From Gemmatimonadaceae bacterium (GTDB taxonomy: Bacteria; Gemmatimonadota; Gemmatimonadetes; Gemmatimonadales; Gemmatimonadaceae), in assembly GCA_020851035.1 (NCBI GenBank), contig JADZDM010000004.1, positions 1 through 64,000 of the forward strand: DNA of 64,000 nucleotides. The letters run 5' to 3'. Below are positions 52,815-64,000 of this stretch, one piece after another. The stretch's first letter is position 1. Every line of letters starts with the position of its first letter. The position numbers and the translations under genes were made by a program. The notes beneath the pieces are model-generated. The model was not told the origin of the DNA and ran no database searches. It worked only from the letters and a program-made list of their open reading frames with translations.

Positions 52815-52898
52815 TACCCGGGACGAGACTCGAACTCGTATACCCCGAGGGGTGGGGGATTTTGAGTCCCCTGCGTCTACCGATTCCGCCACCCGGGC
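52815..52898 (-). tRNA. tRNA-Leu (anticodon CAA)
   Basis: An 84-nt tRNA gene on the minus strand that folds as a class-II tRNA. The acceptor GCCCGGG pairs with CCCGGGT (a G-U first pair). The anticodon stem GGGGA/TCCCC holds the loop CTCAAAA, giving anticodon CAA for UUG codons. There is a long variable arm and a TTCGAGT T-loop. The discriminator is A at 52815; CCA is not encoded. Its 5' 39 nt are duplicated at 62991-63029, so this gene carries one end of the island. Confidence 0.95.
52860..52898. repeat. Left 39-bp attachment-type direct repeat (inside tRNA-Leu)
   Basis: Starts TTTTGAGTCCCC and ends CCACCCGGGC. It is identical over 39 bases to 62991-63029 in the same orientation, and the identity stops sharply on both sides. 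It covers the tRNA from its 5' end through the anticodon loop. Confidence 0.93.
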
Positions 52899-53648: not shown

Positions 53649-54326
53649 ATGCTCGAACAGATTCCATTCGGCACGAACGACTTCGCTGAGAACCCAGAGC
53701 CGCGGTGTCCAGTCGTGCTGCTTCTTGACACGTCGGGGTCGATGAGCGGGCGACCGATGGCGGCTCTCAACGCCGGTCTCCAGACATTCAAGGACGAGCT
53801 GGTCGCGGATTCGCTTGCGGCGAAACGAGTCGAGGTTGCAACCATCTCGTTCGGCCCAGTGCAGGTCCAGCACGACTTCGTTGGCGCGGCTACCTACCAA
53901 CCGCCGACATTGGCCGCGTCCGGAACGACTCCGATGGGCGAAGCGATTGTGCTTGGGTTGGACCTCATCCGTCGTCGAAAGGAGGAGTATCGCGCCAACG
54001 GTATCGCGTTCTATCGCCCGTGGGTCTTTCTGATCACGGATGGCGCCCCGACGGATAGCGTGCATCAGGCCATCGCGGCCATTCAAGAGGGCTCGGCGAG
54101 CAAGGCGTTCTCATTCTTCGCCGTCGGAACCCCAGAAGCGAACATGGAGGTGCTGGCACAACTGTCGCCAGACCGCCCGCCCTTGGTTCTGGACAACCTG
54201 CGCTTCCGCGACTTGTTCGTGTGGCTCTCAAACTCGATGCGCTCGATCTCGCGCTCCACGCCGAGCACTGAGGTGCCTCTCGTCAACCCGGCGGCGCCGG
54301 GCGGATGGGCGTCAGTCTCTGTGTGA
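53649..54326 (+). CDS. vWA-domain protein of TerY/YegL type
   Basis: A 225-residue von Willebrand factor A protein. A complete metal-binding MIDAS is visible: DTSGS at residues 27-31, Thr in TTPMG near 94, and Asp131 in ITDGAPTD. It also has the family opening [17 protein letters not shown]. It is the first gene of a vWA / PP2C / kinase triad on the same strand. I use ATG 53649, which matches the family N-terminus. A GTG at 53589, with GGAGGA six bases before it, would add 20 residues and has the better ribosome site. Confidence 0.88.
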
Positions 54327-54330
54327 GCTC

Positions 54331-55179
54331 GTGGACCAAACGAACAGCGTGAGTAGCGGCAGGCCGTCACCTGCTGAAGCGTGGCGTATCGTTGGCGGTT
54401 CGGTACGCGGCACTTCGCACGTTGACTCTGGCACGCCGTGTCAGGATGCGTGCGAGTTTGCCATTTTGCGTGCTGGAGACGACGCCGTCGCCGCAATTGT
54501 CACCGCAGACGGCGCTGGTAGCTCAGCGCATTCTGACGAGGGTGCGGAGCTGGCATGCGCTGCTCTGCTGGGCGAAGTCTCTGACTATCTCGACGGATAC
54601 GAGCTCTCGGCCATCGACTCCCAAGTCGTGGAGGAGTGGTTTGTACGAGTGCACCAAGCCGTCACCGAACGGGCGGCCGAGCTTAACGTCCAGGTACGAG
54701 AGCTCGCGTGCACGCTGCTTCTCGGCGTGGTCGGAATGAACCGCGCGGTTTGCGCGCAGATTGGCGACGGTGCAATCGTCGTCAATGATGCCACCGCCGA
54801 AGGTGGATATGCGCCCGTCACGTGGCCTCAGTCAGGCGAGTATGCGAACCAGACTTTCTTCGCGACCGACCAAGAAGCACTGCGGCATCTTCAGATCGCC
54901 TTGCTCGAAGATCGACGAATTGATGAGATCGCGCTATTCTCCGACGGATTGGAGAAGTTGGCGCTGAATATGGGTACACGCTCCGCTCACGGGCCATTTT
55001 TTGAGTCGCTGTTCAGGCAGCTCAGGCCGCTGAGTCGTGGAGCTACCGCGAACATCGAGGGGCAGTTTCGCGCCTTCCTCGATTCTCCCGCCGTGAATGC
55101 CCGCACAGACGACGACAAAACTCTGGTGCTCGCGACGCGGCGGCATGGCGCGTCCCTGTTGCCTGTCAGCAACCAATAA
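54331..55179 (+). CDS. PP2C-family protein phosphatase (PphC/YegK type)
   Basis: A 282-residue metal-dependent Ser/Thr phosphatase, cytoplasmic. PP2C metal ligands appear in order: the CQDA segment (Asp39), TADGAGSSAHSDEGA near 58-72, AQIGDGA, LFSDGLE, and a C-terminal DDDKTL. In the triad it presumably reverses phosphorylation by the kinase downstream. The start is uncertain: GTG 54331, four bases after the vWA stop, is preferred. It ends 9 bp before the kinase ATG, which suggests coupled translation. Confidence 0.87.
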   Translation: MDQTNSVSSGRPSPAEAWRIVGGSVRGTSHVDSGTPCQDACEFAILRAGDDAVAAIVTADGAGSSAHSDEGAELACAALLGEVSDYLDGYELSAIDSQVVEEWFVRVHQAVTERAAELNVQVRELACTLLLGVVGMNRAVCAQIGDGAIVVNDATAEGGYAPVTWPQSGEYANQTFFATDQEALRHLQIALLEDRRIDEIALFSDGLEKLALNMGTRSAHGPFFESLFRQLRPLSRGATANIEGQFRAFLDSPAVNARTDDDKTLVLATRRHGASLLPVSNQ

Positions 55180-55188
55180 GGCGCAGAA

Positions 55189-57183
55189 ATGAAGGGTCCT
55201 TCCGTTCCGGTGCACGGACGCGGCTTCGTTGATGGTGCTGGCCGTCAGGTGCGTCTTGGGCAGGAGCTTGGACGCGGTGGCGAGGGTACTGTCTATGACG
55301 TCGTCGGCGCCCCGACTCAAGTGGCGAAGGTGTATCATCATCAGCCTGACAGCGACAAGGCGGCGAAGCTCGCTGCGATGACCCGCGTAGCTTCGCCGGC
55401 ACTTTCTACTGCAGGCGCGTGGCCCATGGCGACATTGCATGCGTACGCAGGCGGACCTGTCGCGGGCTTGATCATGCCCCGCGCGAGAGGCGTCGAGGTG
55501 CATCGTGTGTATAGCCCCGCGTATCGCAAGGCCGAGTTTCCCGGCTACGACTGGGAGAAACTCATCTTCATCGCGAGAAACATCGCCGCAGCGGTCAGCC
55601 ATATTCACCACGCAGGACACGTGGTCGGCGACATGAACGAGGGAAACGTACTTGTCGCGCCGAACGGTATTGTCCAGCTGATCGACTGTGACTCGTTTCA
55701 AATCGACGATGCTGGAGAGTGGCGCCTCTGTGAAGTGGGCGTGGCGAATTTCACGCCACCAGAGCTACAGTCTGCGTCCTTCCGCGGCGTCGTACGGACA
55801 CCGAATCACGATGCCTTTGGCTTAGCGGTGTTGATCTTCCATTTGCTCTTCATGGGTCGCCATCCGTACGCAGGTCGGTTTGGCGGCACGGGCAATATGC
55901 CACTCGAGCAAGCAATTCGTGAGCACCGTTTTGCATTTGGCCGCAACGCGGGTTCGGTGCTGATGGCACCGCCGCCTGATTCCCTGCCCCTGGTCAGCGC
56001 ATCAGAATCGCTCGCGGCTATGTTCGAGAGGGCGTTTGGCGAAGCAGGTTCACGCCCGGGCGCGCGCCCGAGCGCTAAAGCGTGGGCATTGGCGCTCGAC
56101 GGATTACGGGCGGAACTCGCGACCTGCAATGTCAACCGCGCTCATCGCTTCCATCGATCACTCGGGACAGCATGTCCATGGTGTGCTATCGAAGCGACCG
56201 GCGGACCGAACTTCTTCGTGTCAGTAGTTGCAGCGGTTCAAGCCACGGCGGGCGGCTTCGATCTACACGGCGTGTGGGCATCCATCATTGCCCAGACAGC
56301 ACCGGAAAGAGATCCGCCGTTCCCCGCACCAGTGGTCGGTGCGCTCACGCCGAGCGCGAAGGTGACCTGGTGGCGACGGCTGGCGTGGCGAACCCAGAAG
56401 TGGCTCATGCGGGCGTCCGTCGCCGGTGGTGTCGTCGCATGGATCGCATCTGCTCAAGGTCACGCCGTGGACACGCGGGAGAAGCTCGCCATCGTCGGTG
56501 CCGGCGTAAGCGCGTATGCTCTCCGAAGAGTGTCCCGCCTCGCGCACGAGCATGTTCGCTTGAAGGCTGCTGTCACGGATGCGCGCGCGCGACTCCGCGG
56601 CCTTGAGGCCGAGTGGGTCTCGGAACACCAGAAAGCCGCGGATCAGTTCAGCAGACGCGTCGCGGATCTTGCTGCCATGCGCGACGAGTATCTGAAACTC
56701 GAGGAGTCAAAGAATGCGGCGCGTCAGAAGCTTGATCGAGAGCGTCTGGCACAACAGCGGCGCGCATTTCTCCAGAAGCACTACATCAGAACTGCAACGC
56801 TGAGTGGAATTGGTCCAGGGCTCACGGCGACCTTGGCGTCGTTCGGCTTTGAGACTGCCGCTGATCTGGAGGGGAGGCGCGTGTACGGCGTTCCTGGATT
56901 CGGACCCGCGCGCGTGGCTACGCTTATGGCGTGGCGACAAGGACTCGAAGCCAGATTCCGATTTGACCCGACGAAGCCCGTCGATCCCGCCGAGGTGGCT
57001 GCGCTTGAGCAGAAGTTTGCTCGGCGGAAGGTTGAGATTGAACGAACACTTCTCGCGGGCCCAAGTGACTTGCGTCGAATGCTCTCATCTCACAGTCAAG
57101 TCAGGCAGCGACTGGAGGAGCGTTTCGCAGCGCAGCGGAGAGAAGTCTCCCTCTCTGAAGCTAATCTTGCGGTTGGACAGTGA
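55189..57183 (+). CDS. Protein kinase with coiled coil and helix-hairpin-helix (YegI type)
   Basis: A 664-residue Hanks-like kinase. Gly-loop ELGRGGEGTVY (26-36), Lys47, catalytic GDMNEGN (147-153) in place of HRDxxxxN, and metal-binding DCDS (167-169) in place of DFG; these variants are typical of the YegI group. Cys313, Cys329 and Cys332 (CPWC) with nearby His suggest a zinc knuckle. A hydrophobic stretch (about 405-447), a long coiled coil (about 455-530) and a helix-hairpin-helix fold (SGIGPGL near 539, GVPGFGPARVATL near 567) follow. The HhH implies DNA contact. It is the third gene of the triad. Confidence 0.88.
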   Translation: MKGPSVPVHGRGFVDGAGRQVRLGQELGRGGEGTVYDVVGAPTQVAKVYHHQPDSDKAAKLAAMTRVASPALSTAGAWPMATLHAYAGGPVAGLIMPRARGVEVHRVYSPAYRKAEFPGYDWEKLIFIARNIAAAVSHIHHAGHVVGDMNEGNVLVAPNGIVQLIDCDSFQIDDAGEWRLCEVGVANFTPPELQSASFRGVVRTPNHDAFGLAVLIFHLLFMGRHPYAGRFGGTGNMPLEQAIREHRFAFGRNAGSVLMAPPPDSLPLVSASESLAAMFERAFGEAGSRPGARPSAKAWALALDGLRAELATCNVNRAHRFHRSLGTACPWCAIEATGGPNFFVSVVAAVQATAGGFDLHGVWASIIAQTAPERDPPFPAPVVGALTPSAKVTWWRRLAWRTQKWLMRASVAGGVVAWIASAQGHAVDTREKLAIVGAGVSAYALRRVSRLAHEHVRLKAAVTDARARLRGLEAEWVSEHQKAADQFSRRVADLAAMRDEYLKLEESKNAARQKLDRERLAQQRRAFLQKHYIRTATLSGIGPGLTATLASFGFETAADLEGRRVYGVPGFGPARVATLMAWRQGLEARFRFDPTKPVDPAEVAALEQKFARRKVEIERTLLAGPSDLRRMLSSHSQVRQRLEERFAAQRREVSLSEANLAVGQ

Positions 57184-57292
57184 GTGACATCCTGGGACTG
57201 GGTATCTAATCAACTGGTTGTTCTGCGAAGATCCGATTGTCGCACTTGTTCGGAACTACTGTTACGACGCAATTGTCACCTGAACTCTATAC

Positions 57293-59062
57293 ATGCTTAC
57301 GAAGCTGACGCTTAAGAACTTTCGCGGATTCGAGGAGCATGAGCTTCCCTTGCGCAGGCAAACGATCATCGTCGGCCGCAACAATGCTGGCAAGTCAACG
57401 ATTGTCGAAGCCTTGCGGCTTGTTGCACTGTTCACGTCCAGATTGCCGACTGGTACTTTCAGACCGCCACCGGAGTGGCTCGACCAGCCTGGCGCCGGGC
57501 GAGGAATTTTCTCGTCGCTCGACGGTACGTCTTTCGATTTTGACACTGCTCACCACCGATATGCTCCGCCGCCAAGTGTGATCACAGCCGAGTTCTCGCA
57601 TGGTGCGGTTCTACGGCTTTACGTCGGCGATTCACAAATCTTCGCATCTGCGCAGAATCAGCAAGGTCGCCTCGTTGGTGACCGAGCGAGCGCCCGACTT
57701 CTCGCGCTTCCCCCAGTTTTGATCATGCCGCAGATAGGTCCGCTGGCGCTCGAGGAACGGCTGCTCAATTCTGAATACGTGCGCAGGATGCAAGGCACGC
57801 CGCTCGCGTCCCAGCACTTTCGCAATCAGTTGCATCTGGATGCTGAGGGCTTCGAGCGCCTGCAGAAGCTCGTCGAAGACACTTGGCCCGGAGTCAGGAT
57901 CGACGATCTTCTTCTTGAAGACGCTGCTGGTATCGATGCGTCTGACAAACTGAATCAGCGTCTTCTACGACTCATGATTCGCAACGACGACTTTGTTGGT
58001 GAAGCTGCACGAATGGGTACCGGCCTTCAAATGTGGCTTCAGACGATGTGGTTGCTAGCGAGAGCGTCGAGTGATGCGACTGTCATTCTCGATGAGCCGG
58101 ACGTGTACATGCATCCAGATCTTGAGCGTCGCCTCGTGCATGTGGTCAGTGGGCGGTACGCGCAGTCCATCATTGCTACTCATTCGGCCGAGATCATGGC
58201 GGAGGTCCAGCCTGATGAAATTCTCGTCGTTGATAGGAGTAGATCGTCGTCAAGCTTTGCATCAACCCTACCTGCTGTGCAGGGAGTCCTAGACGCACTT
58301 GGGAGCGTACACAACCTTCAGCTAGCTCGACTGTGGACGGCTCGCCGCCTCCTGCTCGTTGAAGGTGACGATATTGCGATTCTAGGTCCAATCCACTCAA
58401 CGCTGTTCCCTAACTGTTCGTTACCGCTCGCCTCTCTCCCGCGTGCTGAGGTTGGTGGCTGGGGCGGATGGGAGCGTGTGATGGGATCTGCTGACGTTAT
58501 GCGAAACTCCCTTGGTGAGCAGATCATGGTGTACGCGCTATTTGATCGAGACTTTCGCACGCCGACCCAGATCCAAGATCGCCTCGAGAAGGCAAAGCGG
58601 GCTCGTATCAATGCTCACATTTGGCAGCGAAAAGAGATTGAGAACTTTTTGCTAGTCCCAAGTGCCATCATTCGTGTGCTGTCCGCTCGAGTCGCCCGTC
58701 GTGAAGAGTTGCCGACTGCACAGGACGTGGAGGGGGCGCTCGACGCTATCGAGGCGGAGTTATGGGCGAGTGACACGGAGGTGTGCCTTGTGACTTCATT
58801 CGGAGCAGAAGTCAAGAACAACACAGGTACTGCGCTGCGCAAAGCACGTGAGTACGCTGATCCACTGCGAGCAACGCGTGAGGGTCGTTGGGCACTTGCG
58901 GGAGGGAAGCAAATGCTGTCGCAGCTCTCCAAGTGGACGCAAGATCGGTACGGCGTGTCATTGAGTGCACTGGCCTTGGCGCACGCCTTACAGCCAGACG
59001 AGATTGCTGCAGAACTCAAAAGTGTGCTTACCGCTGTTGAGACCGGAACACCGCTGGAATGA
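57293..59062 (+). CDS. OLD-family ATP-dependent nuclease (AAA-TOPRIM)
   Basis: A 589-residue overcoming-lysogenization-defect family protein. The ABC-type ATPase part has Walker A GRNNAGKST (28-36), signature-like GTGLQMWLQ (242-250), Walker B VILDEPD (264-270) and switch THSAE (296-300). The TOPRIM part has LLLVEGDD (353-360, Glu357), DRD (418-420) and KEIENFLL (447-454). No GIY-YIG or UvrD helicase gene is adjacent, so it looks like a stand-alone class 1 OLD. It lies 109 bp past the kinase on the same strand, leaving room for its own promoter. A defence role is an inference. Confidence 0.88.
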   Translation: MLTKLTLKNFRGFEEHELPLRRQTIIVGRNNAGKSTIVEALRLVALFTSRLPTGTFRPPPEWLDQPGAGRGIFSSLDGTSFDFDTAHHRYAPPPSVITAEFSHGAVLRLYVGDSQIFASAQNQQGRLVGDRASARLLALPPVLIMPQIGPLALEERLLNSEYVRRMQGTPLASQHFRNQLHLDAEGFERLQKLVEDTWPGVRIDDLLLEDAAGIDASDKLNQRLLRLMIRNDDFVGEAARMGTGLQMWLQTMWLLARASSDATVILDEPDVYMHPDLERRLVHVVSGRYAQSIIATHSAEIMAEVQPDEILVVDRSRSSSSFASTLPAVQGVLDALGSVHNLQLARLWTARRLLLVEGDDIAILGPIHSTLFPNCSLPLASLPRAEVGGWGGWERVMGSADVMRNSLGEQIMVYALFDRDFRTPTQIQDRLEKAKRARINAHIWQRKEIENFLLVPSAIIRVLSARVARREELPTAQDVEGALDAIEAELWASDTEVCLVTSFGAEVKNNTGTALRKAREYADPLRATREGRWALAGGKQMLSQLSKWTQDRYGVSLSALALAHALQPDEIAAELKSVLTAVETGTPLE

Positions 59063-59116
59063 CTTTGCGGCGTTCCGAGTTACTACGACAACCTCTCAGC
59101 AAGAGAAGATGTTCGC

Positions 59117-59983
59117 TCAGTTGGGAGTCGATACGATGACTCCGTTTCGGACGTATCGGTTCCGCAGCGACTCGGACTCGTGGAAGATCATAGCTAGAAA
59201 ATACTCGATTCGGGTGGCGACGAGTGCTCGTGTTCCTTTCGTCTGCCCGTAGATGCTGATTGCCGCAAGCAGGTCGGGTGTGTTTGGGCTGGAGAGGCTC
59301 TGTGACATCCACACACCACCGCCGCTGATTCCATTTTGTTTCTTCATCGAATACAGACCGTCAATGTCAAGCACGCGATCTGGTCGAAACTTTATCGCGA
59401 CGTGATGCTGTGCATTAAATGCACCTTCACCGATAGCTCGATACCTCGATGGCTCCAGCTCTACACCAGTGAAGATCGTCATTTTCGGATGAAAGGACTG
59501 GTCAGCGTCGTTACGGTTTTGGTGTGCAACCGGATAACCCAGAATCGTCCAGAACTTTGCGTTGCTCGTCGTTTCGGCGAGACATATGTCCTTCATCTCA
59601 ATCCATCGGATATCGCGCAGATCCTCGGCAATCTCGTCTGGCAGTTGCACAACTGCAGCGTCTAGCCAGTCTCTCGAGCGTTCTGCACAAGTCCCCGTCG
59701 TCGAAAAGGTCGGCAGGGTGAAGAAGTGAGTGGATCCGCCCAGAACGAGCTCGCCGTGCTGCGCCCAATCTGTTACGTGAGCAGCCGTGAGTGCAAAGTG
59801 CATTCCGTCAATTCGCAAGAGAACGCTTGAGCCGACAAGCTCAAGTGAACCATCAGTGCGTTCGAGGCCGATGGGCCTGACGCATGAACTAGTCTCTGCC
59901 GCAAAGCTTAGCGCTCGAGTGTTTATGAGTTCGCGAGCTAAGCGCTCCTTGGGTGTTCTTGGCTTATTCCTTCCTCGCGTCAT
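59117..59983 (-). CDS. Trypsin-like serine protease
   Basis: A 288-residue chymotrypsin-fold peptidase without signal peptide or membrane span, hence cytoplasmic. The catalytic triad is readable: His69 in LTAAHV, Asp108 in DWLDAAVV, Ser220 in NGISGGG. The N-terminus is basic (GRNKPRTPKERLA). The ATG at 59983 is preceded by GGGAGAGG and lies one base after the stop of an upstream frame, suggesting coupling to a lost upstream gene. It converges on the OLD gene with 54 bp between stops. The substrate is unknown. Confidence 0.82.
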   Translation of the reverse strand: MTRGRNKPRTPKERLARELINTRALSFAAETSSCVRPIGLERTDGSLELVGSSVLLRIDGMHFALTAAHVTDWAQHGELVLGGSTHFFTLPTFSTTGTCAERSRDWLDAAVVQLPDEIAEDLRDIRWIEMKDICLAETTSNAKFWTILGYPVAHQNRNDADQSFHPKMTIFTGVELEPSRYRAIGEGAFNAQHHVAIKFRPDRVLDIDGLYSMKKQNGISGGGVWMSQSLSSPNTPDLLAAISIYGQTKGTRALVATRIEYFLAMIFHESESLRNRYVRNGVIVSTPN

Positions 59984-60347: not shown

Positions 60348-60408
60348 TGTCAATGATCGTCTGAAAGTCCTCAGGTAGTGATCGTCTCAAATGCCCCACC
60401 CGGGTGAT

Positions 60409-62441
<2,033 letters not shown>

Positions 62442-62592
62442 CGGGGCTGCTCCGAGCCAAGGCTGCTCGGAAGATGCCCCGCCATCCGGTCCTACCAGCC
62501 ACTCCAGTCTGCCATCCATTGCCCAGCTCCCGCGGTGGGGGTGGGGCATTTGAGACGATCACTGGGTGGGGAATTTGAGACGATCACTGACA

Positions 62593-62990: not shown

Positions 62991-63029
62991 TTTTGAGTCC
63001 CCTGCGTCTACCGATTCCGCCACCCGGGC
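62991..63029. repeat. Right 39-bp attachment-type direct repeat (tRNA-Leu 5' half)
   Basis: Exact copy of 52860-52898. On the minus strand it is the tRNA-Leu 5' half up to the end of the anticodon loop. The 3' half is absent, so it is not a working tRNA gene. Confidence 0.93.
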
Positions 63030-63207: not shown

Positions 63208-64000
63208 TCACGGCGCCACACCATCCCGCCGCAGCTCCTCTGCGGTCGCTGCCCGCGCCACCGTGCCCGGCGGATCGGCATACCATCCGGGATCGGCCTG
63301 ACCCGTCACCCGGTCCCGCACCTTCAGCAGCGTGAACATCCCGCCCATGTCGATGTGCCCCTTCGGACCGGCCACCCCCGCCATCGGTACCGAGTTCGCC
63401 GGCACCGGCATCCCCATCAGGCCGTGATCGCCCATGCCGGTCTGGCCCATCGTCATGTACTGCGGCAGCAGTGACGCCGTCGCGCCATCCACCTTCGCCC
63501 GGTCCACGCCGATCAGGTTCACGCCGCTGTGGCCCATCTGGTTCATCGTGTGATGGGTCATGTGGCAGTGCATCGCCCAGTCACCGCTCGCCTCGGCCGT
63601 GAACTCCACTGTGCGCGTGGTGCCGACGGGCACGAGCGTGGTGCTCTCCGGGAACTGCGCACTGCGCGGCACCTCCCCACCGTCGGTGGCGGTCATGCGC
63701 CATGCCAGCCCGTGCACGTGGATCGGATGGTGGCTCATCGCGCCGAGATTGCCGAAGCGGATGCGCACGTCGTCCAGGCGCTGGATCACGAGCGGCGCCG
63801 TGCCCGGGAACGCGCGACTGTTGAAGGTGAGGATGTTGAAATCCGTCATCTCGTTCGGGTCCGGCCGCGCGGTGTCGAGCGCGATGCGCCACTCACTCGA
63901 CAGCAACGCGAAGTCCCGCGCCGGGCGCCGCCGCCCGCCCCGCGGGTGCACGACGATCATCCCCATCATGCCCAGTGCCTGCTGGGTCATCTCGTCGTAG
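63208..64000 (-). CDS. Multicopper oxidase, C-terminal part (runs off window)
   Basis: At least 264 codons of a copper oxidase whose 5' end lies beyond the window edge; the frame is open to 64000. Copper ligands are visible: HHPIHVHG (type 2/3), and HCHMTHH bracketing the type-1 Cys near the C-terminal third. Several Met-rich stretches (QYMTMGQTGMGDHGLMGM) resemble those of copper-resistance oxidases. The protein probably acts in the periplasm; the signal region is not seen. Its role (copper, manganese or lignin-like substrates) cannot be settled. Confidence 0.9.
   Translation of the reverse strand, partial: YDEMTQQALGMMGMIVVHPRGGRRRPARDFALLSSEWRIALDTARPDPNEMTDFNILTFNSRAFPGTAPLVIQRLDDVRIRFGNLGAMSHHPIHVHGLAWRMTATDGGEVPRSAQFPESTTLVPVGTTRTVEFTAEASGDWAMHCHMTHHTMNQMGHSGVNLIGVDRAKVDGATASLLPQYMTMGQTGMGDHGLMGMPVPANSVPMAGVAGPKGHIDMGGMFTLLKVRDRVTGQADPGWYADPPGTVARAATAEELRRDGVAP

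Follow-up and report, generated by a model that had tools for sequence, protein, structure and literature searches.

A genomic island at tRNA-Leu in a Gemmatimonadaceae bacterium carrying a YegI-type kinase triad, an AriAB-like ATPase/TOPRIM protein and a putative trypsin-like protease

Gene content and boundaries of the island

The window analyzed here comprises the first 64,000 nucleotides of a 185 kb contig from the 5.0 Mb genome of a Gemmatimonadaceae bacterium. To the right of a tRNA-Leu(CAA) gene, it contains a tRNA-bounded island of 10.1 kb with five protein-coding genes and one IS21 element. The features of this region are (window positions):

52815–52898, minus strand: tRNA-Leu (anticodon CAA), the insertion site (ARAGORN)
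52860–52898, no strand assigned: 39-bp direct repeat at the left edge of the island (repeat family D1), identical to the 5' half of the tRNA and probably attL
53649–54326, plus strand: vWA protein, YegL homologue (Pfam VWA, E = 5e-8)
~54331–55179, plus strand: PP2C phosphatase, PphC homologue, with a GTG start at 54331 or 54349 (PP2C_2, E = 7e-49)
55189–57183, plus strand: YegI-type Ser/Thr kinase (Pkinase, E = 4e-8)
56125–56184, plus strand: C313-H319-C329-C332 cluster of the kinase, behind the kinase domain, kept in at least 90% of 18 homologues
57293–59062, plus strand: single-chain ABC-ATPase/TOPRIM protein, AriAB (PARIS)-like (AAA_21, E = 1e-18; AAA_15, E = 5e-18)
59117–59983, minus strand: putative trypsin-like serine protease (motifs and alignment with three relatives)
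about 60377–62588, minus strand: IS21-family element within the island (Pfam IstB_IS21 and rve; terminal inverted repeats I1/I2)
60409–61212, minus strand: istB of the IS21 element (Pfam)
61209–62549, minus strand: istA of the IS21 element (Pfam)
62991–63029, no strand assigned: second copy of the 39-bp repeat at the right edge of the island, probably attR (repeat search and genome search)

The five ORFs are real and lie on the strands and at the approximate coordinates given in an earlier note on this DNA, and its identification of the vWA protein, the PP2C phosphatase and the kinase agrees with the Pfam matches. The note had overlooked the edges of the island (tRNA-Leu and the 39-bp repeat) as well as the IS21 element. 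The two repeat copies match each other perfectly and were found in only these two places genome-wide. All five genes span 6.3 kb inside this single repeat pair, and their grouping is explained by their location on one 10.1 kb repeat-bounded island. The kinase gene is followed on its strand, after ~110 bp, by the nuclease gene, which encodes the ATPase/TOPRIM protein, so that the two may be co-transcribed. The protease gene is oriented convergently to the nuclease gene. GC3 was 0.75, 0.66 and 0.64 for the vWA, PP2C and kinase genes, respectively, and lower for the nuclease (0.58) and protease (0.57) genes; compared with this cargo range of 0.57–0.75, the TonB receptor gene and istB had values of 0.94 and 0.91.

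The same tRNA was located 1.1–1.5 kb from the homologue of a gene starting at ~73165 on the contig in six relatives (L159–L162, L164 and L165), in five of which the left anchor gene was strongly conserved too, and the gap was 1.9–4 kb in three additional relatives. Here, the distance between tRNA-Leu and this right anchor gene is about 20 kb. As this exceeds the 10.1 kb bounded by the repeats, more than one insertion has probably taken place at this site. The ~10 kb past the right repeat (from 63030 to the window end at 64000 and on to ~73165 of the contig) are likewise missing beside tRNA-Leu in the relatives, which suggests a second insertion at the same tRNA gene. No integrase was seen on the island, and it may therefore be decayed or have been moved in trans. 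Most probably, the island was acquired horizontally and integrated at tRNA-Leu(CAA) on the side of the anticodon loop, and it carries three independent modules. No further complete gene was recognized in the stretches flanking the IS21 element, whose 25-bp terminal repeat occurs twice in tandem at its right end (62539–62588).

The vWA-PP2C-kinase triad

The likeness of the triad to Escherichia coli YegL/PphC/YegI, which had been proposed earlier, was borne out. Both loci contain the same three families in the same order and strand arrangement, and the island kinase is 37% identical over 90% of its length to the kinase of the E. coli locus, which is annotated as YegI; the terminal helix-hairpin-helix and the Cys/His cluster are conserved between the two. 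They differ in hydropathy: on the Kyte-Doolittle scale, three 19-residue windows of E. coli YegI exceed 1.5 and none of the island kinase does, its membrane-like middle segment being weaker. The location on an island is a second difference.

Full-length kinases were found in two of the 249 sampled genomes of the phylum. In the second of these genomes (locus L040), the kinase, vWA and PP2C proteins are 52%, 71% and 53% identical, respectively, to those of the island, and this full-length homology rules out a chance resemblance. Neither the nuclease nor the protease is present at that locus. The triad of this nearest relative (L040, 2443–12312) is convergent with ORFs resembling the type I restriction genes HsdR, HsdM and HsdS. 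Among 17 sampled triad loci, which are mostly plasmid-derived and also include chromosomes, the order vWA-PP2C-kinase was retained in 16, with vWA identities of 51–71%; at the remaining locus, from Microvirga, only the kinase was recognizable. The triad is maintained as an operon in its own right.

The vWA metal-site motif DTSGS is intact in the island protein and conserved in 17 sequences. The acidic metal ligands D58, D79, D224 and D281 of the phosphatase (P0002 numbering) are conserved and intact here. The kinase consists of a kinase domain (~aa 22–230), the Cys/His cluster, a helical region and a helix-hairpin-helix (~aa 540–583), and the catalytic residues, the Cys/His cluster and the C-terminal helix-hairpin-helix were well conserved in an alignment of 18 kinases. 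The Cys/His cluster, C313-H319-C329-C332, had been missed in the earlier note and may be a zinc site. That YegI-type kinases have a conserved Cys/His cluster besides the helix-hairpin-helix is a lead worth following.

The triad had also been labeled TerY-P, which did not hold. According to the accounts of Anantharaman (2012) and Gao (2020) given in PMC11090510, TerY-P shares with the island triad the combination of a vWA protein, a PP2C phosphatase and a Ser/Thr kinase. TerY-P kinases, however, carry a C-terminal zinc ribbon or an OB fold (PMC11090510), whereas the island kinase ends in a helix-hairpin-helix; the triad is therefore a relative of the YegI type and falls outside TerY-P in the strict sense. 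No PADLOC model matched the vWA protein or the phosphatase at E ≤ 0.1, and the kinase matched only STK_OB, weakly (20 bits) and over residues 144–197, which lie inside the kinase domain. TerY-P identity was rejected on both grounds.

By homology, the three proteins would form a phosphorylation switch of the YegL/PphC/YegI kind. In E. coli, PphC has been reported to dephosphorylate autophosphorylated YegI (work of Rajagopalan as cited in PMC13232886). The island kinase would thus be expected to autophosphorylate and to act on its targets through the presumably nucleic acid-binding helix-hairpin-helix, possibly together with the zinc site, while the phosphatase would reverse the phosphorylation by the kinase and the vWA protein may serve as a metal-dependent adaptor.

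The ATPase/TOPRIM protein and the protease

The fourth gene had been described as an OLD-TOPRIM nuclease. Its assignment to the TOPRIM nucleases stands, but the plain OLD label was replaced by AriAB-like, as the PADLOC model AriAB scored highest (92.9 bits, residues 257–489), above OLD and GajA. The AriAB model also matched all 42 aligned members of the family, eight of which contained a detectable DUF4435, the AriB TOPRIM domain (best E = 7e-5). In PARIS, an anti-restriction protein acts as the trigger and tRNA is cleaved. AriAB of PARIS is encoded by two genes or one fusion (Rousset et al., PMC9122126), and the fusion combines, as here, an ATPase (AAA_15/AAA_21) and TOPRIM in a single chain. 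A point of difference is that the island nuclease itself gave no Pfam match to DUF4435. OLD class 1 proteins likewise combine an ABC ATPase and TOPRIM in the product of one gene and have conserved acidic residues (PMC10568477), and all of these features were found in the island protein. OLD class 2 (Gabija) differs by an adjoining UvrD-like helicase (PMC10568477); here the neighbors are the kinase and the protease, and neither a UvrD helicase nor a reverse transcriptase was found beside the nuclease gene. Since the place of AriAB among the OLD classes is itself unsettled (PMC10568477), we refer to the protein as AriAB-like on the strength of its profile matches and treat it as a candidate for full membership in PARIS.

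An AlphaFold2 model of the protein was confident (mean pLDDT 89.7). In Foldseek, the best structure by E-value was the Thermus scotoductus OLD protein (6p74, E = 2e-13). VIA-align 2 aligned ~295 residues of the model, all within residues 1–339, to retron PtuA ATPases (Z ~21, rmsd 3.7). The comparison with the PDB thus covers mainly the ATPase part (residues 1–339), and AriA and AriB were absent from the matches listed, which argues neither for nor against a relation to them. From homology, the protein would be a self-contained unit in which the ABC ATPase senses a signal or restrains the TOPRIM domain, and the latter would cut nucleic acid, the substrate being DNA if it acts like OLD and tRNA if it acts like AriB.

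This nuclease family is widespread. A single genome scan returned 226 relatives, and the best 80 of them aligned over most of their length with 29–48% identity and came from many phyla; members occur in Acidobacteriota, Proteobacteria, Planctomycetota, Bacteroidota, Bacillota and others. Invariant or nearly so are the Walker residues, E357, D360, D418, D420, K447, E448 and E450, and the family has a conserved KEIEN motif. The nuclease was found on plasmids only in two Cupriavidus replicons and not in phages, and viral contigs yielded no close relatives. Type I restriction subunits, a DNA methyltransferase and other ATPases were neighbors at a few loci each, and no recurrent partner gene was found in the loci of the family. 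A second lead is this widespread family of single-gene AriAB-like ATPase/TOPRIM proteins, which, having no fixed partner, is a clean candidate for lone-gene defence and for the question of DNA versus tRNA cutting.

For the fifth gene, the earlier assignment to the trypsin-like proteases is supported by its His, Asp and Ser motifs, and no obvious signal peptide is present. H69 (in AAH), D108 and S220 (in GISGG) follow the trypsin order and align in four sequences, namely the island protease and three distant relatives. No Pfam or NCBIfam model matched the protein, its hydropathy profile contains no strongly hydrophobic segment, and a single-sequence structure model was unusable (pLDDT 31.5). 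Weak relatives were detected in six other genomes among the 249 of the phylum; none was found on plasmids and no close one in viral contigs. The gene lies on the opposite strand and probably represents a stand-alone module.

Linkage of the modules in other genomes and possible functions

The earlier note had considered the triad, the nuclease and the protease a fixed arrangement, which would require that their homologues be recurrently adjacent. No such adjacency was observed. Across 82 nuclease-family loci, each extending up to 10 kb to either side with some contigs being shorter, the triad's vWA and PP2C genes were both absent and so was the protease, and neither the nuclease family nor the protease was present at any of the 17 triad loci. 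A kinase match at one nuclease locus (L055) was discarded, being weak (29 bits) and unaccompanied by vWA or PP2C. Among 49 whole genomes containing the nuclease family, one had a YegI-type kinase, which was located outside the 21.7 kb locus of that nuclease. The neighborhoods of five protease relatives contained neither the triad nor the nuclease. Given this lack of recurrence in related genomes, the five genes are to be regarded as an ordinary, mixed island cargo with probable roles in defence and signalling, and not as one new machine. We consider it likely that they make up three separate modules on a mosaic island, namely the kinase triad, the nuclease and the protease, brought together by island assembly and not by a shared pathway.

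One could instead envisage a single integrated defence system. In it, infection would be sensed by the triad, whose kinase and phosphatase would determine how far the nuclease is phosphorylated, with the protease acting as a second effector. The compactness of the locus, with five genes in 6.3 kb and the triad and the nuclease on one strand only 110 bp apart, would fit such a system. This reading is nevertheless strongly weakened, and we judge it very unlikely, by the zero counts at the nuclease and triad loci, the near absence of YegI-type kinases from genomes with the nuclease, and the convergent orientation of the protease gene, whose relatives are found elsewhere. In a narrower version, the kinase/phosphatase pair would only lately have been linked to the AriAB-like nuclease beside it, with phosphorylation controlling nucleic-acid cleavage. 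This would be a local and recent assembly, and no recurrence elsewhere would then be expected; we likewise regard it as highly improbable. These findings indicate that the striking module of five genes in the earlier note came together as cargo of the island and does not recur as a system.

Within the three-module reading, the role of the triad itself may be viewed in two ways. It may have no part in defence and serve as a stress or housekeeping switch, a reading that concerns the triad only. The E. coli yegL-pphC-yegI genes lie beside yegD, alkA and other ordinary genes and have no defence annotation; here, in contrast, the triad is an accessory set on an island, with the full-length kinase being rare in the phylum and the triad frequent on plasmids. 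We see a housekeeping role as a serious candidate, if somewhat short of an even prospect. Alternatively, the triad alone may act against phages in the manner of TerY-P, with the other two genes as bystanders, which is compatible with the three-module reading. TerY-P-like modules with an OB-fold kinase have been reported as stand-alone defence (Gao 2020, as cited in PMC11090510), a TerY-P system protected Pseudomonas aeruginosa PAO1 (PMC10889362), and triad loci occur near restriction and toxin genes. However, the island kinase is YegI-like with its helix-hairpin-helix, its two partners match no PADLOC model, and E. coli YegI/PphC, besides its ordinary flanking genes, has no known trigger (PMC13232886). 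An anti-phage function is thus possible but doubtful. For each of the three modules, a defence role is suggested by family and genomic context, and the biochemical activities of all five proteins are predicted.

Several triad neighborhoods are rich in defence genes. On the Rhizobium rhizogenes plasmid pColt5.8b (L137, 1–11839, and L169), a YegI-type triad has, at a distance of ~5 kb, an OLD-type ATP-dependent endonuclease, which is followed by a UvrD helicase to form a Gabija-like pair. Considering this neighborhood and that of L040, looser functional links of the triad with defence genes are conceivable. In the rhizobial plasmid loci L137 and L138, the His-Xaa-Ser radical SAM set hxsB, hxsC and hxsA immediately precedes the triad, and an SH3-domain gene follows it. 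The sphingomonad plasmid loci L139 and L141 have one gene block in common, made up of AbiE-type, exonuclease, ATP-binding and triad genes; the kinase in it is longer (~720 aa), and its annotation includes a topoisomerase-type C4 zinc finger.
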